Shown: in pieces, positions 1,566 to 9,330 of the stretch
Numbering within the stretch: the stretch's first letter is position 1
Layout of the letters: every line of letters begins with the position of its first letter
The notes under the pieces: generated by a model
The model's input: the letters and a program-made list of their open reading frames with translations, nothing else
Database searches by the model: none
Told to the model about the DNA's origin: nothing
Origin: Verrucomicrobiales bacterium
GTDB taxonomy: Bacteria > Verrucomicrobiota > Verrucomicrobiia > Verrucomicrobiales > DEV007
Reading direction: 5' to 3'
DNA: 50,097 nt
NCBI GenBank assembly: GCA_016795505.1
Contig: JAEUHH010000119.1
Span: 1-50,097, forward strand
Program-made: the position numbers and the translations under genes

Positions 1566-4460
1566 TCAGGAGCCTGAGGGATTACGGGCAACCCATTCGG
1601 CTTTCCATCTGGCGAATTGCTCCCGGGCAATCCTGACGTTCGGATGGTCGAAGCTGCCGAGGCGCTTGAGCATGTCCACCATCACCAACAGAGCGTCAGC
1701 GTCCTTGCGATCACGCTTGAGGATGTCGGCAGTACGCAAGTAGGCCTGAGTGGACCAGTCGAGGTGACCGGGGAAGTTGACGTAAACGCTCACGTAAAGC
1801 TTGAGGGCCTCGTTGGGCTTGCCGGTCTCCTCAAGACAACGGCCGAATTGGAAATTCGCCTCTGGCCGGCTGGACACCCATTCCTCGCGACGAAGATACG
1901 TCCCCCACCAATTGAGCGCCTCCTTGTGTCTTCCTTGCCTCATGAGCAAACGCCCCCCTCCCAAAGTGGCGGCCTCCTGTAACAATGGCATGTCGAAACG
2001 CTCCCGAACCTCTGCATAGTATGCCAGGGCTCGATTCCGATCAGTTTCGGACTCTGATGTCGCAAGCAATCCGGCCAAATCGGACATTACCATCTCAATG
2101 TGCTCGCCCAAAGGGCGTGTCTTGATGATGAATTCCAGAATCTCCCGTGCTTTTACCGTGTCGGAGCGCGCTACATTCCATCGGGCCAGTTTCACCAGTG
2201 GGTAGTTCGAAACACTTTCGCGAGGCAGATCAAGTTGAATCTTGAAGTAAAGATTGTCGATCGTGTCGCGATGCGTCTCGTCCCCCAGTCCCTCCATCAA
2301 CTCGATCTCTGAAATCGTCAGCCAAGCCCGGAGCGGCGCGGGGTCGTCGGTTGGAGCGGGAAAATGTCTCACCAGACTCAGCACAGCGCCGACATCATTC
2401 CTGTCCTTCAGGAACGCCAGCCAGGTGCCGAAGATCTCTCCAAGCGAAGAGCCCGGGTCGTTGGCGAATCTCAGTATCTGCTCTTGAAGTGCGGCGACGG
2501 CGTCCGCATGTCTTCCCTTTTCTGCAAGCGACCTCACCGCACCAGCGATGGCGTCAATCTCGTGCCCGCTACCTGGAAAACTGGTTCTGAAATCGTCATA
2601 TAGGGCGATCACGGCATCGTGATTTCTGGCACCGGACTGGAGAGCAATTTGCTTCCAAACCGAATAAGCTGCGGTCTCAATCAAGGCGGGATCGGCGCTT
2701 GCCAGTTCACGGCCCTTCTCATACGTGCCGAGGATCGCCTCCAACGGCACCTCGCCCTGGGCCAAAAGTATGTCAGCGGTCAGGTTCCAGGAAGCAGCGA
2801 CCTCTTTGGCCGAGGGCCAGTCATTGCGGAGTCGCTCAGCCTTGGCGGAAGCTTCGTCGAGTTCACCGAGAGCGAATCGCCCCAATGCGGCTTGAAGCAA
2901 GGCGCTGGGTCGAAGGGAAGAATCCGGGAAATCCTCCTCAAACTTTTCCAGGACCTCGACGCCTTCCTTCCACTTGAACAAGTGCATCTTGGAAGCGCCA
3001 AGATAGTAAGTGGCGGGCTCGGCGCGGCGAGGTTTGGCATAGCGCTTGAGGTATGTATCCAGTTCGCTAGCGGCATCCTCGTGATTTCCGAGGTGAAAGA
3101 GAGACGCCGCTGCGACGTAGTCCGGCACGTCGGCGGCGACATCGCGGCGCGGAAAGCGATCTCTGAGGGCGACGCCCGTCTGACGGGCCTCTCCCCACTC
3201 GCCCAGCAGATAGATTGACTCGGCCATGAGCCTGGCCACCTCGGCAACTAGGGAATGCTCGGGATAGCGCTCGAGAAATTCATTGCCGTACCCGCGAATC
3301 TCTCCCCACCGGGCGAGATACGCGCAGCTCGCAATGAGGTTGTAGACGGCGTCGGGCCATTGTGGATGATCCGGGTGATGATCAGAGACCTCGCGAAAGG
3401 CGGCATAGGCAGCGCTGACATTGCCCAACTGAAAATGCCCGGATCCAACGCCAAGGAGCAGCGCAGCCTGCCCGTCGCGCGCTCGGGCCAGTTCTGTCTC
3501 CGCCTCTCTTTTGCCGGCACTCAGCCGCTCGCGGGCAGCAGCATCATCCGGCACGACCTTTCCCAACTCGGCGATTCGGATTTCCCAATGAGAAATCCGT
3601 TCTTGGGGATTGAGGAGAAATCCGTACCATGTCAAGGCGCGGAGGGGCTCCTCATTTTTTAACGCCTCACGAGCGAGGTGCGCGAAAACCGGGTTCCGTT
3701 CCCATTGAGCGTTCGGAGTATCATTCCTAAGCAGCTCTCCATAATCCCAAAGGAAGGGCAGCACCTGCTCGAAGGGTACGCCAGGGGTCCAATCCTCGAC
3801 GAGTATCATGAACGCCTTGCGCTTCATCTCGGCCGGGAGAGTCGTGCTGGCGAGGGCTTTCAGAATGAGTTCCTTTCCTTCCGCAAGCTCCCCATTTCTA
3901 AGCAGCGAACGGGCTAGGTTCAGTGCGATGGCATCTGTACGAATGCGGGTGGCGGACGATTTTTCAAGGGCTAACTTGAGCTTCTCGATTGCCTCGGGAT
4001 AGTTTCCCGTAATCATGAGGCAAGCGCCCCACTGGGCCAGAGCGTGAACAAGAAAGCGGTTGGCAAGCTTGGGTCTTTCGCGCAAACCCTCACTATTAAT
4101 GAGCTCGTTGGGAAACTCCTCGTAGCAGGTTCGAAAAGAATTAGCCGCCTCACCGTAGGATTCACTGGCCATTAGCAACACTCCCCGCAAGTAGTGAAAA
4201 TGACCGAACCCGGGGCCGAACTCCTCCTTTCCCCTCGCGCCCCAGTGGTGGATCAGGCCATCAGTAAGAGCAAGTCCCTTTTCGTAGGAGCCCGAGTTTA
4301 GGAAGGCTACAATTTGATTATATACAGCGGTTGGATTGGAGAGAAAATCGGGATCTTCCGCATTTTGCCCAGCGGCGGGCCCAACCGCCATCATCAGCAA
4401 GGCGAGCGAACATGGAAGCCAAGCGAGCGAGCTTAATTTCATACGGCCGACATCATTCAA
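1566..4460 (-). CDS. large exported TPR-repeat protein
   Basis: A 964-aa protein with a signal peptide (hydrophobic run about residues 10-30, likely cut near AAGQ). Nearly all of the rest is tetratricopeptide or half-TPR repeats, with typical phrases such as SGSYEKGLALTDGL, GNYPEAIEKLKLALEKS and GRHADAVAALQEQILRF. Such arrays bind peptides or build periplasmic assemblies; some resemble the YbgF/CpoB partners of Tol-Pal. Its start ATG overlaps the stop of the toroid gene by 4 nt (ATGA), so translation is probably coupled. A second Met at residue 7 is a possible alternative start. The ligand is unknown. Confidence 0.88.
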   Translation of the reverse strand: MNDVGRMKLSSLAWLPCSLALLMMAVGPAAGQNAEDPDFLSNPTAVYNQIVAFLNSGSYEKGLALTDGLIHHWGARGKEEFGPGFGHFHYLRGVLLMASESYGEAANSFRTCYEEFPNELINSEGLRERPKLANRFLVHALAQWGACLMITGNYPEAIEKLKLALEKSSATRIRTDAIALNLARSLLRNGELAEGKELILKALASTTLPAEMKRKAFMILVEDWTPGVPFEQVLPFLWDYGELLRNDTPNAQWERNPVFAHLAREALKNEEPLRALTWYGFLLNPQERISHWEIRIAELGKVVPDDAAARERLSAGKREAETELARARDGQAALLLGVGSGHFQLGNVSAAYAAFREVSDHHPDHPQWPDAVYNLIASCAYLARWGEIRGYGNEFLERYPEHSLVAEVARLMAESIYLLGEWGEARQTGVALRDRFPRRDVAADVPDYVAAASLFHLGNHEDAASELDTYLKRYAKPRRAEPATYYLGASKMHLFKWKEGVEVLEKFEEDFPDSSLRPSALLQAALGRFALGELDEASAKAERLRNDWPSAKEVAASWNLTADILLAQGEVPLEAILGTYEKGRELASADPALIETAAYSVWKQIALQSGARNHDAVIALYDDFRTSFPGSGHEIDAIAGAVRSLAEKGRHADAVAALQEQILRFANDPGSSLGEIFGTWLAFLKDRNDVGAVLSLVRHFPAPTDDPAPLRAWLTISEIELMEGLGDETHRDTIDNLYFKIQLDLPRESVSNYPLVKLARWNVARSDTVKAREILEFIIKTRPLGEHIEMVMSDLAGLLATSESETDRNRALAYYAEVRERFDMPLLQEAATLGGGRLLMRQGRHKEALNWWGTYLRREEWVSSRPEANFQFGRCLEETGKPNEALKLYVSVYVNFPGHLDWSTQAYLRTADILKRDRKDADALLVMVDMLKRLGSFDHPNVRIAREQFARWKAEWVARNPSGS

Positions 4461-6010
4461 TTGATCCGGCCTGTCGCTGGCAGGTAGCGGTAATAGACTT
4501 CCAACATCAGTGTGGAAAGGCAGGATCGGTAGATCTCCGAGTCTTCCCCGGCTTGGTCCGATTTTCCGCTGCCTTCAGGCGCCCAAGAGCCATCGCGATC
4601 CTGCCCGAGCAGAATCTCATCGCGGAAGGCAGCATTCCAAGTTTCCCAAGGTTTACCCCCTTGGTTGAAGGCTGCCTGGGTCATGTAATACCACGCATAC
4701 AGGTCGCAGGATTCGGTATTGTAGGAGAATGGCCCTCCCTGGAAGAAATAGTCGAAACCACGCTGCAACTCTCCCTTTCCAGGATTGCCCAGCAATTGCA
4801 GTCCGAGGATGCCCACTCCAGTGAGGCTGTATTTGTCCTCTGTTTGACGATAGCCGAATCCACCCAGTGGTCCTTGCCGCCCTGCTATAAGAGATCGGGT
4901 CTTTCTCATGGCCGCATCAAGGCCTGGCACATCGACCTGGGCATGAGCCGCCGCCCTAAGCGCCTGCACCTGCCATCCTGTCACCGACAGATCGCCGGAA
5001 CCCTTTCCGGTATATCCATAGACCCAGCCTCCGTCCGGATTCTGGCCTCGAATAATGACCTGCACTGCTCGTTTGTGGACTTCCTCCAAATCGGGAATCT
5101 CAGTGCCTTCTGCGCGCGAGATCACCAGCGCCTCGCCGAGCGCGTAGGTGGCGATGGCGTGCTCGTAGGTCCAATGTTGATTTCCAATATTGCCGATCCG
5201 CCCCTGATTTCTCTTTGCCGTCTCGATCAAGTGAACCAGCCCCTTGGCGACCGTCTCGCCGTAAGTGGGAGACTTTGTTGTTTCACAGTGACCTAGATAG
5301 CATAACAAGGCCAATCCGGTCATGGCAGCTCGATATTGACTACCCCAGTGACCGAGTTTGACATTCTGTCGGTCTTTCAACCAGACCAGCGATTTCACCA
5401 CCGCTGCTTCCACCTCTGGAGTGCCTCCATTCTCATGGAGCAGGCGGGCGCGCTCGCCCGGAATACAACGGCCCCGCATTGTCGCGGGAATTTTTCCGAC
5501 CGTCATGCCCCCACCTCCCGCGCCACTGCCCAGGCCGAATCCCAAGCCCACCTCCCCCAACCCGATGCCCACCGGGGTGATGCCATCGGTGGTCACTTCC
5601 GGCGCTGCCATCACCGCTTCCGTTTCCGCCCGAATCACGCTTGCTGCTGCGGCGGAAGCGTCGGGCCTCGCTTGGCTGAGCTGCTTTACAGCGCTGAGTC
5701 GGGTCATCTCCAGATCGACAGAAACCGGGGTCGTCACTACCTCCGCAATGATTTCCGGTAGATCACTCTCTCCCGGCAGAGCCACGATGAACGCGCCGAT
5801 AATCAGGACGATCACATGAATTACCAACGCCCACAATAATGCCCGCTTGCCTCGCCCTCCACCCGGTATTCGCTCAATCAGCGCACCGGTAATCCAGCGC
5901 ACACCGTCCCACAGCATTCCCATCGACAGCCGAAACAAGCCGCCTCGGCGATGGCGCCCCGGCTTCTTGAGGCGCTCCAGCATTTCTAAATCGTCGTCGG
6001 TAAAGAGCAT
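4457..6010 (-). CDS. TonB-like anchored alpha/alpha-toroid (prenyltransferase/squalene-cyclase-repeat) protein
   Basis: A 517-aa protein in three parts. Residues 1-56 are cytoplasmic and basic. Residues about 57-79 form one membrane helix with a histidine inside it (WALVIHVIVL, His65), as in the TM helix of TonB/TolA-type energy transducers. Residues about 80-190 are an Ala/Gly-rich linker. Residues about 195-515 are an alpha/alpha-toroid with QW-like turns: QNPDGGWVYG, RQGPLGGFGY, GQDRDGSWAP. The DxDD acid motif of squalene-hopene cyclases is not seen and no clear zinc-ligand set of protein prenyltransferases was recognised, so the toroid probably binds rather than catalyses. The gene is 10 nt downstream of exbD and overlaps the TPR gene by 4 nt. 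Role as the moving arm of the ExbB/ExbD motor is inferred. Confidence 0.82.
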   Translation of the reverse strand: MLFTDDDLEMLERLKKPGRHRRGGLFRLSMGMLWDGVRWITGALIERIPGGGRGKRALLWALVIHVIVLIIGAFIVALPGESDLPEIIAEVVTTPVSVDLEMTRLSAVKQLSQARPDASAAAASVIRAETEAVMAAPEVTTDGITPVGIGLGEVGLGFGLGSGAGGGGMTVGKIPATMRGRCIPGERARLLHENGGTPEVEAAVVKSLVWLKDRQNVKLGHWGSQYRAAMTGLALLCYLGHCETTKSPTYGETVAKGLVHLIETAKRNQGRIGNIGNQHWTYEHAIATYALGEALVISRAEGTEIPDLEEVHKRAVQVIIRGQNPDGGWVYGYTGKGSGDLSVTGWQVQALRAAAHAQVDVPGLDAAMRKTRSLIAGRQGPLGGFGYRQTEDKYSLTGVGILGLQLLGNPGKGELQRGFDYFFQGGPFSYNTESCDLYAWYYMTQAAFNQGGKPWETWNAAFRDEILLGQDRDGSWAPEGSGKSDQAGEDSEIYRSCLSTLMLEVYYRYLPATGRIN

Positions 6011-6020
6011 GAACGTTTCC

Positions 6021-6533
6021 TCAGGGAGAAAGGCTCACATGTTCGATTCCCGCCTTGGCACAGGCGTTCAGCACATCCACAAAGCGCTGCTCCGGCACTT
6101 CATCGTTACAATCGATCGTCACCCGCGGAGGCATCTGGGCAATCCTCGCTGCCGCCGCATATCGGATCAGCCTGTCAGTCAGATTCGGCACCGCGTGATC
6201 ATTCCCTTCCGTATCGACTGGCTCGCGGTTCACCATTACTGCGCCCGATGCCGCTATTTCGATCCGCATCTGGTCCATCGGCACCGGACTGCTTTCCACC
6301 CTCGTCACTCCCGGCAGTGCCATCGAAAGGTCCGCCTCCTGCTTGATCAGCGTGGTGGTCACCAGGAAGTAGATCAGCAGCAGGAACGCCACATCTATCA
6401 GCGGGGAGATGTTTAACTCCGGGCTGTCGCCATGGGCAAAAAGGCTGCGGGATTTGATGTGGCGCATAGAGTGGGTGTATTTAGTTCTAGGTTGTGGGCT
6501 TTCTGAAGCTTCCGCTTTTTGCTTGGGCATCAC
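6021..6533 (-). CDS. exbD: ExbD/TolR-family proton-channel subunit (second copy)
   Basis: A 170-aa ExbD/TolR protein. After a 45-residue cytoplasmic segment comes the family membrane helix with its essential aspartate (NISPLIDVAFLLLIYFLV); this Asp carries protons in ExbD/TolR/MotB. A periplasmic domain of about 95 residues follows, ending in the usual fold (RFVDVLNACAKAGIEHVSL). The ATG overlaps the stop of the upstream exbD by 4 nt, which supports this start, although an internal Met at residue 23 would give a more typical short N-terminus. Two unlike ExbD subunits beside one ExbB suggests a heteromeric stator, a common arrangement in this phylum. Confidence 0.92.
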   Translation of the reverse strand: MMPKQKAEASESPQPRTKYTHSMRHIKSRSLFAHGDSPELNISPLIDVAFLLLIYFLVTTTLIKQEADLSMALPGVTRVESSPVPMDQMRIEIAASGAVMVNREPVDTEGNDHAVPNLTDRLIRYAAAARIAQMPPRVTIDCNDEVPEQRFVDVLNACAKAGIEHVSLSP

Positions 6534-6958
6534 TTGTCTGTGACGTGCGTCGAGAAAATGACATTAGCCACTCCGCCTTTCGCAGAGGCTTCGACAACCC
6601 CTTTGACAAAGCGATGGGCCGCCATCCTATCCGCCCGAACATGGAGCCGCACCGCCGGATCAGCCTGTTTTGCTCCCCGCATAAGGGTCTCGACTCCCAC
6701 CGTATCAATCACCATTCCCGCCTCATCCTTAATTGTTCCATCCTCGTAGACGTTCAACACCACCCTTCCTTGGATCAAACCTGGCACCTTCCCCGCCGAG
6801 GCCACCGGGATCTTCACGTTCGGATCTTGCCTGTAAGTGATCATCGTCGAACTCACCATGAAGAAGATCAGCAACAGGAAGACCAAATCGATCATCGGTG
6901 ACAGGTCCACCTGCAGCGACCGGCCACGAAACAGCGATTTCCGGGAAACTGCACTCAT
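6530..6958 (-). CDS. exbD: ExbD/TolR-family proton-channel subunit (first copy)
   Basis: A 142-aa ExbD/TolR protein with a short basic N-terminus and the signature helix VDLSPMIDLVFLLLIFFMV containing the proton-binding Asp. The periplasmic domain has the typical peptide-binding layout, ending FVKGVVEASAKGGVANVIF. It overlaps both neighbours by 4 nt (exbB stop/exbD start and exbD stop/exbD start), so the three are surely co-translated. Sequence differs clearly from the second exbD, so this is an old duplication rather than a recent one. Confidence 0.93.
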   Translation of the reverse strand: MSAVSRKSLFRGRSLQVDLSPMIDLVFLLLIFFMVSSTMITYRQDPNVKIPVASAGKVPGLIQGRVVLNVYEDGTIKDEAGMVIDTVGVETLMRGAKQADPAVRLHVRADRMAAHRFVKGVVEASAKGGVANVIFSTHVTDK

Positions 6959-7851
6959 GCATCTGGAACGGTTTCAGCTTCACTTGCATGCTTCGCCGCC
7001 GAGGCGTAAACGACCCGCCTCAGTGCGCCCAGCAATTCAAGGCCAAACTCTTCGCAGTTTGACACCAGTTCCTCCAAGCGGTCTCGGAAGAAGAAATACA
7101 GGAAGATCGCCGGCAATGCGATGATCAGCCCCGCTGCCGTGGTCACCAGCGCCTCCGAGATGTTGCCCGCCAACTCGGAGGGATTTCCCATTCCCTTCCG
7201 CTGCAGCGTGCCGAATGCCTTGATCATTCCTGACACAGTCCCCAGTAGGCCCATCATCGGCGCAGCCTGGGCGAGTACCGAGAAGTAATTGATCACACGC
7301 GCTCGCATCCGGTTCGCCTTGACGCCAGCCTCCGCCATCAGGTCGCGAAGCATGTCGTTGTCCTCCGTGCTATAGCCAGTTTCCTCGATCTGGTCTCCAA
7401 CCTTAGCCACCATTCGGCCCAGTGTCGTCTCATCCGTCCGCGCCAGTTCAAAAGCCGACTCCAGATTTCCGATCTGCAAATTTGCGTGGAGCGAATCCCG
7501 CAATACGCCCGGACTGAAATTGACAACCCTCAGGTCCATCGCGCAATAGACCGTCAGCCCAACGAGAGCCAACGAAAAGGCCCCCAGCACCCACATCGAC
7601 CACCCCCCCGCCGCGATCAAGCCGAGGAGCGACGTGTCAACCTCCGCCGCCATCGTGTCATCCGCCGGAGCCGGTACGGCCACCAGCAGTCCATCGGTAA
7701 GTCCCGGAATATTCAGATCATCAGCCCCGGGCGCCTGTCCCAGAGCTAGAATCTGAAATACCGCGAAGCAAGCGAAAAGACAGCCTGCTATGAGCATTGT
7801 CCTAGACCACCGCCCAGAGGAAACTCCAGAGTCAACATCAGATCGCGTCAT
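6955..7851 (-). CDS. exbB: MotA/TolQ/ExbB proton-channel protein
   Basis: A 298-aa protein counted from the ATG at 7851. A purine-rich ribosome-binding site (AAGAAAGGAAA) sits just upstream of this ATG; a longer open frame to 8034 lacks such support and encodes unlikely residues. Residues about 18-38 form a signal peptide or first helix, followed by a periplasmic stretch and a helix at about 83-104. The conserved MotA/TolQ/ExbB core is at about 185-258, with APMMGLLGTVSGMIKAF (197-213) and ALVTTAAGLIIALPAIFLYF. It would form the pentameric channel around the ExbD helices. It is the first gene of the minus-strand operon. Confidence 0.93.
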   Translation of the reverse strand: MTRSDVDSGVSSGRWSRTMLIAGCLFACFAVFQILALGQAPGADDLNIPGLTDGLLVAVPAPADDTMAAEVDTSLLGLIAAGGWSMWVLGAFSLALVGLTVYCAMDLRVVNFSPGVLRDSLHANLQIGNLESAFELARTDETTLGRMVAKVGDQIEETGYSTEDNDMLRDLMAEAGVKANRMRARVINYFSVLAQAAPMMGLLGTVSGMIKAFGTLQRKGMGNPSELAGNISEALVTTAAGLIIALPAIFLYFFFRDRLEELVSNCEEFGLELLGALRRVVYASAAKHASEAETVPDA

Positions 7852-8025
7852 TTTAATTTCCTTTCTTCCCGTATAGCGAAATCCGCCGTAAATGGAAACC
7901 CGAAAATTCGGTCCATTACGGGCGGCGGTCCATTCCCTGAAGCGACTGACGTTTGTCCACCATCGGAACGTGATGGAGCATAGCCTGGAAGAGGCGTCGC
8001 GCGATGGCGGAGAAGTAGTGAAGAT

Positions 8026-8070
8026 GCGATGCAAGAGGGTTGGATCGGAGAGGTCACAGGGTTTGATTGG
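8026..8070 (+). repeat. dispersed 45-nt repeat, degenerate copy
   Basis: Two AGGGT-centred half-units start exactly 22 nt apart, as in the other copies. The second half ends in TTTGATTGGG, close to the TCTGATCGG of the best copies. Read in frame on the plus strand it gives RVGSERSQGLIG, matching RVSSPIKQGLIG of the copy at 17302. It lies upstream of exbB. Confidence 0.6.
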
Positions 8071-8412: not shown

Positions 8413-9330
8413 CTACCTCCGAGATGCCTTAATGTCCGCGGGCGCCAAGAGCTTGCGCAAACTCGCGGCGGGAATGCAGGATTTCACCACCATTTGCAGA
8501 TTCCTCTGCTCGCCCTCCTCGACGGTGTAGTAGATGGAATTGGTGGACGCCACGACGCCGGTGAGTTCCCCGCGCTCGTTGAACACGCCGCAGCCGCTCG
8601 ATCCTTTGGCGTAATCGGCCGTAATCTGGAGCCGCGGCGCCTTGGCTTGGGCCTCGAAGTAGTAGCGGGCCACGATGCCCTCGGAATAGGTGAAAAAGCG
8701 CCCGTCGGGATGGCTGATCACCCGCACCTCGGAGCCGACCGGATCGTCGATCCGCGCCACCGGCACGGCGTCGAGCGATTTTCCATCGGTCTTCAGCCGG
8801 ACCACGGCCAAATCGTCCGCCTTGGAGGCGGCGAGCACGGCGACGATCGGAAAGACCTCGCCCGCAGCGGTCATGGCTCCGAAGGTCTCGGCTTTGGCGG
8901 CTTCCATGACGTGGTAGTTGGTCACCACGATGCCGGAGGGATCGATGACGACGCCGCCGGCGATGGACGGATGCCATTTGTCGCATTTGCCGCACTGATA
9001 CAGGTGCCCCACCATCACCGTGGCCCGGCTGGCGCGTTCGTAGATCTGCGGCGAGGTGAGCGGCGCCGGCTTGGGAGCAGATTCCGTCGCCGCGGGCCAG
9101 GCGATCGCCACGGGCGCAGCCGGACCGCCCTCGCGTCTGGCTTTCTCCCAATCGGGCAGCAACTGCGCGCCCTTCGGCGTTCCGGGCGTGCCCAACCAGC
9201 TCTCCATCTCCTGCTGGAAGCGCCCGCGCAGCGCGGCATCGTCCACCGTCAGAACGGGCATGGCCGTCTCGCCGGCGGCGGAGACCAGCGTGGCGATGAG
9301 AACGGCCGGGAGCGGGAAAAGGTGCCTCAT
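8413..9330 (-). CDS. secreted trypsin-like (DegP/S1C-type) serine protease
   Basis: A 305-aa protein with a signal peptide (about residues 1-20). The trypsin-fold domain spans about 98-300 and has the full catalytic triad: His140 in VVTNYHVME, Asp173 in ADDLAVVRL and Ser245 in KGSSGCGVF. A CGKC pair at 113-116 next to the first beta strand may bind a metal or form a disulfide. No PDZ domain follows, so it is shorter than DegP/HtrA. It overlaps the upstream cytochrome/LRR gene by 4 nt and is probably co-translated with it. The protein substrate is unknown; action in the periplasm or outside is inferred from the signal peptide. Confidence 0.88.
   Translation of the reverse strand: MRHLFPLPAVLIATLVSAAGETAMPVLTVDDAALRGRFQQEMESWLGTPGTPKGAQLLPDWEKARREGGPAAPVAIAWPAATESAPKPAPLTSPQIYERASRATVMVGHLYQCGKCDKWHPSIAGGVVIDPSGIVVTNYHVMEAAKAETFGAMTAAGEVFPIVAVLAASKADDLAVVRLKTDGKSLDAVPVARIDDPVGSEVRVISHPDGRFFTYSEGIVARYYFEAQAKAPRLQITADYAKGSSGCGVFNERGELTGVVASTNSIYYTVEEGEQRNLQMVVKSCIPAASLRKLLAPADIKASRR

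Follow-up and report, generated by a model that had tools for sequence, protein, structure and literature searches.

A toroid-headed candidate transducer in an ExbB/ExbD operon of a Verrucomicrobiales bacterium

Introduction

The vWA transducers of Planctomycetes-Verrucomicrobia-Chlamydiae (PVC) bacteria carry a transmembrane (TM) helix with a motor-binding His and have TPR-TolQ-TolR-TolR neighbours, according to the part of the paper available to us (Williams-Jones et al. 2025, PMC12204202). Here we describe an operon in a 50,097-nucleotide stretch of DNA from a Verrucomicrobiales bacterium (assembly GCA_016795505.1, contig JAEUHH010000119.1, positions 1 to 50,097; hereafter the window), in which an ExbB/ExbD motor is encoded together with a membrane-anchored protein that ends in a predicted alpha/alpha toroid. 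Of the described systems the vWA transducers are the closest: the available part of that paper gives them a TM helix with His, a disordered linker, a globular non-TonB head, TolQ, two unlike TolR subunits and a TPR protein, all shared with the window, whereas the head in the window is an alpha/alpha toroid and not a vWA domain. The toroid appears to be a new head on a known kind of arm and motor.

The ExbB-ExbD-TonB and TolQ-TolR-TolA systems share with the window operon the motor families PF01618 and PF02472, a single TM helix with an A/S-x3-H motif, and a long linker; in TonB and TolA of E. coli the spacing in this helix is S-x3-H. The operon differs from both in having no match to the TonB C-terminal domain (TonB_C), two unlike ExbD subunits, and TPR partners. 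A cluster in Fibrobacter succinogenes (FSU_2396-2403), raised on cellulose, encodes OmpA, TPR, TPR, ExbB, ExbD, ExbD and TonB-family proteins (PMC6851124, available in part); the proteins have neighbouring locus numbers and resemble the window set by annotation, the last one being annotated as TonB family.

A further relative is the MUL1 locus of Akkermansia muciniphila: the gene set ExbB-ExbD-ExbD-TPR-Mul1B, as seen in three Mul1B-bearing genomes (G025, G032, G036), is common to it and the window, where a toroid gene is inserted before the TPR gene. According to PMC13174399, MUL1 is similar to Sus, and aquatic Akkermansiaceae show no synteny of the locus. In the available parts of two other sources, Akkermansia is stated to need MUL genes for accumulating mucin products (review PMC12418764), and a figure legend marks enzymes with a Mul1A association (PMC11790493). 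Toroid, squalene, prenyl and terpen are all absent as words from the main text of PMC12204202, no toroid-headed transducer was found in the open-licence PMC literature by title or abstract start, and the available parts of PMC10886448, PMC13274419 and PMC5087111 hold nothing on such proteins.

Results

A motor operon with a toroid protein

The genes for ExbB, ExbD1, ExbD2, the toroid protein, a TPR protein and a Mul1B-like protein form one minus-strand operon, arranged head to tail in this order, with three 4-nt overlaps (ExbB/ExbD1, ExbD1/ExbD2 and toroid/TPR) and gaps of 10 nt (ExbD2/toroid) and 42 nt (TPR/Mul1B-like). A preliminary description of this DNA had reported one ExbB, two unlike ExbD subunits and a protein composed of a TM helix with His65, a linker and a toroid, all on one strand with 4-nt overlaps and a 10-nt gap. 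These four genes are confirmed as described; the operon is longer than was proposed, the TPR (1566-4460) and Mul1B-like (489-1523) genes having been missed.

Sequence, profile and fold comparisons point to the toroid protein (517 aa; 4457-6010, minus strand, as are all features of the operon) as a toroid-headed transducer. Its single TM helix (residues 53-77; 5780-5854) is a helix in a low-confidence structural model and a hydrophobic block aligned across 64 rows. The helix holds His65 (codon at 5816-5818) within RALLWALVIHVIVLIIGAFIVALPG, with the A61-x3-H65 spacing of the A/S-x3-H motif. Past the helix, the segment PEIIAEVV (residues 85-92; 5735-5758), similar segments of which appear in alignment A4, occupies the position that the motor box has in TonB/TolA. 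It is followed by a linker that is Gly/Ala-rich by reading (residues 93-175; 5486-5734), whose boundary at residue 176 comes from the torC profile, and by the alpha/alpha-toroid head (residues 176-517; 4460-5485).

Linkage of the toroid to the motor across the phylum

Toroid relatives reach E ≤1e-30 in at least 144 of the 288 genomes examined from the phylum, with up to five candidates scored per genome. From these we picked 28 toroid-bearing genomes (5 from the own order and 23 from outside it) for low E and spread, their linkage then being unknown, and examined one toroid locus in each together with the ExbD matches listed. The toroid gene lies beside ExbD and ExbB in 19 of the 28 genomes, including 16 of the 23 outside the own order. 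The linked loci follow the order TPR(~950)-TPR2-ExbB-ExbD-ExbD-toroid, with a long TPR protein present in 18 of the 19 and a second, short TPR/Mul1B-like protein in 14. Chance alone would place a gene no more than 3.5 kb from an ExbD gene with a mean probability of 1.3% (maximum 2.5%), and 19 of 28 linked loci correspond to P ~2e-24 at the 2.5% rate, with the genomes taken as independent, which they are not. Nine loci are unlinked, and one of them (L167) has a motor ~8 kb off. Linkage was possibly cut off at three loci, where the toroid reaches the contig end (L161, L162) or starts 619 nt from it (L166).

The preliminary description had asked whether the same gene order occurs in other genomes, which it does, and had held that a majority of homologues without ExbB/ExbD neighbours would speak against a motor partner. 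The picture here is divided: only 10 of 46 arm-bearing toroid rows in close relatives are linked, while 19/28 are in the phylum sample. Two toroids each were present at five loci (L141, L149, L150, L157 and L165). Among the genomes listed, the 11 of the same class but other orders have no toroid match, and more distant families of the phylum have one.

Conservation of the transmembrane histidine

The close set consisted of 64 aligned arm rows, one of them a fragment (L074_1-1167), and the His is present in 56 of the 64. All motor-linked rows have it, whether the head is a toroid (10/10), a vWA domain (5/5) or another head (1/1), and so do the unlinked vWA rows (12/12, one of which, from L054, is a truncated duplicate of the L053 row). 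In this set, the TM columns from −9 to +10 other than that of His65 contain no His at all. In the distant set, the His was found in 21 of 24 linked toroid open reading frames (ORFs) and in 6 of 13 unlinked ones (two of these ORFs lying at contig ends), which brings the total for motor-linked toroid ORFs in both sets to 31/34. Outside the own order GPxxS(V/I)xxH is the usual form of the motif, and the distant His mostly takes the form S-x3-H. A motif SHLS is named in the available part of PMC12204202.

The coupling to the motor claimed in the preliminary description is thus supported by the His in 10/10 close and 21/24 distant linked toroids, and lack of conservation of His65, which it had named as an argument against itself, is not seen among motor-linked relatives. 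A Val replaces the TM His in toroid proteins of two Akkermansia-like genomes, at L065:9434-10936 (G036) and L066:6091-11030 (G032), and L066 contains several toroid copies or pieces in tandem.

Other heads on the same arm

The toroid query matched 36 of 38 genomes, and some matches spanned only residues 41-170, representing the arm on other heads. Such arms carry vWA-like heads at L043, L044, L045, L047, L048 and L052. Pfam vWA models score above their cut-off in L052, L048 and L050 and below it in L043, L047 and a protein on contig C20 of the own genome; L044 and L045 were called vWA by likeness alone, and L043-L048 and L050-L052 served as seeds of the vWA profile, so that their own matches to it are by construction. 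The operons of L043-L045 and L052 have the gene set of the window but for the head (ExbB-ExbD1-ExbD2-arm-TPR-Mul1B). Another head on the same arm is encoded at L043:3392-4516, in tandem with a vWA copy and inside an ExbB-ExbD-ExbD-TPR-Mul1B operon; a Pfam scan found no domain in this head, and PA14, an impression from reading with no Pfam support, was dropped.

We built an operon tree from ExbB, ExbD1, ExbD2 and TPR proteins of 33 operons, some of which miss a gene (L047, L070, L072, L130, L136). Seven toroid operons (Shimodaira-Hasegawa-like approximate likelihood ratio test support 99) and five vWA operons (100) are joined in it at 100, and their sister group consists of 17 operons without a linked arm (99), including three with a Mul1B of 278-288 bits. 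Three toroid operons of family f4 are placed elsewhere, on a long branch. The fragment L074_1-1167 was dropped from the arm tree, as were the duplicates L011 and L054 (L071 being the same as L011). In the arm tree, a set of 14 (97) comprises the toroid arms of the 7 clade operons, those of the 5 linked vWA operons, the arm with the other head and the vWA arm of L048, classed as unlinked; unlinked toroids and those of f4 fall outside this set. In Verrucomicrobiales the linked arms of these toroid and vWA operons thus form one set. Since the arm tree follows the operon, the arm moved together with the motor, and it was the heads that were swapped on a single motor lineage.

Kinship to the MUL1 locus

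Three genomes of one genus, which is probably Akkermansia (G025, G032, G036), encode a Mul1B that reaches 278-288 bits on NF052542 (mucin_mul1B_fam, cut-off 75), in the order ExbB-ExbD1-ExbD2-TPR-Mul1B. The window Mul1B-like protein (344 aa; 489-1523) matches the same model at E 7e-11 with 42 bits, below the cut-off, and the best Mul1B score in the own genome is 53 bits. Unlike in the window, no arm gene was found between the MUL1 ExbD2 and TPR genes: this interval spans ~0.3 kb (G032) or 1.1 kb (G036), the ORFs in that of G036 have no more than 104-120 aa, and none in either interval matched the profiles. The window operon and the MUL1 locus of Akkermansia type are paralogues.

A paralogue of the window operon, itself of MUL1 type, lies on contig C86 of the own genome (L062:6338-13558), with ExbB, ExbD1, two ExbD2-like, TPR and Mul1B-like genes; no arm was found in it, and the third ExbD occupies the place that the arm has in sister operons. 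A general rule by which unlinked toroids act in trans on MUL1 motors was not upheld, the toroids of G032 and G036 having lost the His. In two genomes with MUL1-type operons (G004 with L137 and G025 with L123) no arm-bearing toroid was seen, vWA arms not having been searched there; G004 has one weak toroid match to residues 199-514, and G025 none. In other genera of the family of the Akkermansia-like genus, L158:1680-12655 and L165:1743-11080 have the order TPR-Mul1B-like-ExbB-ExbD-ExbD-toroid, and these loci bear on the published absence of MUL1 synteny in aquatic Akkermansiaceae.

The toroid head

The head scores 19.6 bits on the Pfam model SQHop_cyclase_C, below its cut-off of 26.1, and 17.9 bits on TIGR01507 against a cut-off of 431; some distant relatives do clear the PF13243 cut-off. 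A 25-row toroid profile matches squalene-hopene cyclase in PDB at 1e-12. The structural model aligns with cyclases, GH76 mannanases and cellobiose epimerases almost equally well (Z ~20-21; 20.9 for model residues 197-512), and its best Foldseek E is 7e-4. These fold matches are merely indicative, because they come from a single model built on a 3-row alignment with a mean predicted local distance difference test score of 51.5. Together, the comparisons support an alpha/alpha-toroid fold. With the squalene-hopene cyclase superfamily the protein has the alpha/alpha toroid and QW-like turns in common; it differs in being one toroid of ~330 aa on a TM arm, and in lacking the DxDD motif, which is missing from the window toroid and present in only 1 of 44 toroid rows. 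No match to TonB_C (PF03544) or, with Pfam models, to vWA was found in the toroid protein at E ≤1.

Across the 44 rows, 64 columns are occupied by a single residue in 90% of rows or more, and R181, C182, C242, E243, T244, H284, E293, D340, S342 and W346 are found in all of them. A partial Lentisphaerae sequence outside this set (L012) has Gly at the position of C242.

Motor genes and accessory proteins

The ExbB/TolQ-like subunit (6955-7851) has 298 aa from an ATG at 7851, its open frame extending to a TTG at 8034 (6955-8034). It scores 93.7 bits (E 9e-27) on PF01618, whose gathering score is 22.9, while the curated tolQ/exbB models match below their cut-off. On PF02472 (gathering score 25.4), ExbD1 (6530-6958) reaches 53.5 bits (E 3e-14) and ExbD2 (6021-6533), which is unlike ExbD1, 83.2 bits (E 2e-23). 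The membrane Asp is residue 24 in ExbD1 (SPMIDLVFLLLIFF) and residue 47 in ExbD2 (SPLIDVAFLLLIYF), in both cases within SPxIDxxFLLL, and we take it to be the proton-binding position.

The TPR protein (964 aa; 1566-4460) matches TPR families and has a signal-like N-terminus by reading; relatives' operons retain both the TPR and the Mul1B-like genes. Directly upstream of the operon, on the same strand, a trypsin-like serine protease is encoded at 8413-9330 (PF13365, E 1e-20).

TonB and related systems in the same genome

The own genome has 10 MotA/ExbB matches. A TonB with ExbB/ExbD is encoded on contig C51, and on C82 a TolA-like protein (L054), with A-x3-H in its helix, is likewise found with ExbB/ExbD. 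On C20, ExbB-ExbD-ExbD genes are followed by a gene for an S-x3-H protein with a weak vWA match (PF00092, E 0.03), a 961-aa TPR gene lying upstream. Four TonB-dependent receptor plugs are also present. The coexistence of TonB, TolA-like and vWA-like systems and plugs in this genome indicates that the toroid machine is an additional system.

TonB_C was found at E ≤0.001 in all 38 genomes searched, the own genome included, and over the cut-off in 36, again with the own genome among them, and a receptor plug was found in 35 of the 38. A replacement of TonB in the cell was rejected on these counts. The preliminary wording "instead of TonB" thus holds for the operon and not for the cell, and TonB C-terminal domains, whose absence from relatives' genomes had been raised as a check, are present in all of them.

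Pairs of TPR-TM-toroid and TPR-TM-vWA proteins form a separate arrangement. At L053:6555-13031 (C82 of the own genome) and L087:6697-12887 the pair is preceded by an Hsp70 gene (PF00012, E ~1e-162), both proteins have the arm His, and the sequence retrieved around them contains no ExbB/ExbD. Toroid/vWA pairs are further seen in L080, L081, L085 and L088.

Discussion

A probable motor-driven arm with a toroid head

Our reading of this operon is that it encodes a proton-driven trans-envelope machine in which ExbB/ExbD move a toroid-headed arm, for which we estimate a probability of roughly 0.72; that the toroid protein is a motor-driven transducer is, taken by itself, very probable. In such a machine an ExbB pentamer around an ExbD1/ExbD2 pair would drive the arm, which may use its TM helix, and His65 in particular, to dock on the motor. 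A flexible linker would span the periplasm, and the arm would end in the toroid head, where other transducers have TonB_C or vWA. The docked arm would be moved by protons flowing through ExbB and the ExbD pair, and the head could then pass the pull on to a periplasmic or outer-membrane partner. What it grips could be the TPR and Mul1B-like proteins, some outer-membrane protein or the cargo. The first of these are the best partner candidates, because they are kept in the operon when the head changes.

Several observations weigh against this reading. In close relatives, 36 of the 46 arm-bearing toroid rows lie away from any ExbB/ExbD, 28 of them with the His (one of the eight misses is the fragment), and the 7 other unlinked rows without it come from G032 and G036 (four rows), L090, L096 and L097. 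The His is also missing from the motor-linked L152, L154 and L156 and from five complete unlinked distant ORFs. A Fisher test of the His in linked versus unlinked sequences, run without L074_1 (the fragment) and without the ORFs that reach contig ends in L161 and L162, gave p 0.08, and loss of the His is therefore not clearly tied to loss of linkage. The TM helix of the TonB on C51 of the own genome (L059:10249-11115), whose gene neighbours two ExbB-like genes, lacks a His, so that a TM His is not universal even among TonBs. The PEIIAEVV segment is modelled as a low-confidence helix with no beta strand, so that the strand of the motor box is not predicted. No TonB or TolA chain was matched by the arm profile in PDB at E ≤10, and the TolA model matches the arm weakly (E 0.1 and 0.058); the TonB likeness therefore rests on motif and context, and a TonB/TolA-like arm is, at the level of sequence, suggestive only. 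MUL1-type operons, moreover, are without a linked arm. Finally, 27 head positions with polar or aromatic residues are invariant in the 44 rows, which would be expected of an enzyme too.

Alternative explanations

A motor-driven but Tol-Pal-like job in the envelope, such as outer-membrane tethering or division, would be compatible with the transducer mechanism. The TPR protein of the operon matches tol_pal_ybgF with 103 bits (cut-off 90), and TolR is the best-scoring ExbD-type model for both ExbD1 and ExbD2, yet below its cut-off. Against this stand the separate TolA-like protein with its own ExbB/ExbD on C82, and the two or three Mul1B-like copies of some genomes, which fit better to an accessory, substrate-specific role; we consider such a job unlikely.

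That the toroid is a membrane-anchored enzyme, active on terpenoids or glycans and merely co-transcribed with the motor, seems improbable to us. The near-equal Z of its low-confidence model to cyclases, mannanases and epimerases would suit an enzyme, as would the invariance of C182, C242, E243, H284, D340 and many Tyr and Trp residues, and the toroid of L159 has no His-bearing TM helix. But DxDD is missing in 43/44 rows, the TM His and the motor linkage recur across many families, and sister operons put non-toroid heads on the same arm. A terpene enzyme, which the preliminary description had also denied, was dropped as the primary interpretation given the missing DxDD and the recurrence of arm and motor linkage; the denial fits the missing motif, but the invariant polar residues keep an enzyme among the alternatives.

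Motor-driven surface motility or adhesion, again compatible with a transducer, has been suggested for vWA heads in the available part of PMC12204202, and finds an echo in a weak GltJ match (E 0.019) on the C20 vWA protein and, in the TPR protein of a relative, a GltE-type match that stays under its cut-off (E 6e-7); the MUL1 kinship points instead to glycan uptake, and this role, for which adhesins were not searched, seems improbable. It is equally hard to credit that the His arm is ancestral baggage on a static scaffold holding TPR proteins at the inner membrane: the unlinked toroids of G032 and G036 did lose the His although their MUL1-type motor operons persist, but the residue is retained in nearly all motor-linked toroid ORFs.

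Function and significance

Returning to the motor-driven toroid arm, uptake of macromolecules may be its job, by analogy and at slightly less than even odds, because of the MUL1 kinship and the likeness to the cellulose-raised Fibrobacter cluster (PMC6851124, available in part). A more specific and tentative version would have, in Verrucomicrobiota, one ExbB/ExbD chassis with interchangeable heads on a TonB-like arm, the toroid head being widespread in the phylum, in which the toroid grips and, together with the TPR and Mul1B-like proteins, pulls polymers through the outer membrane. If true, this would be a proton-driven import of mucin- or polysaccharide-type polymers into the periplasm, parallel to TonB-dependent receptors. 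It could also cover the unexplained uptake step of MUL1-type loci, with toroid or vWA arms from unlinked genes acting in trans in some genomes.

The preliminary description had spoken of a third kind of proton-driven envelope machine, which is not supported: transducers of the TonB, TolA and vWA types (PMC12204202, available in part) came before it, and the operon belongs with MUL1-type loci. The available part of that paper names TonB, TolA and vWA heads, and a toroid found next to the motor in many families of one phylum widens this list. The exchanged heads mark the arm with its His as the likely engine interface and the head as the part that sets the task. The toroid machine would thereby be a testable candidate for the passage of large polymers across the outer membrane in relatives of Akkermansia.

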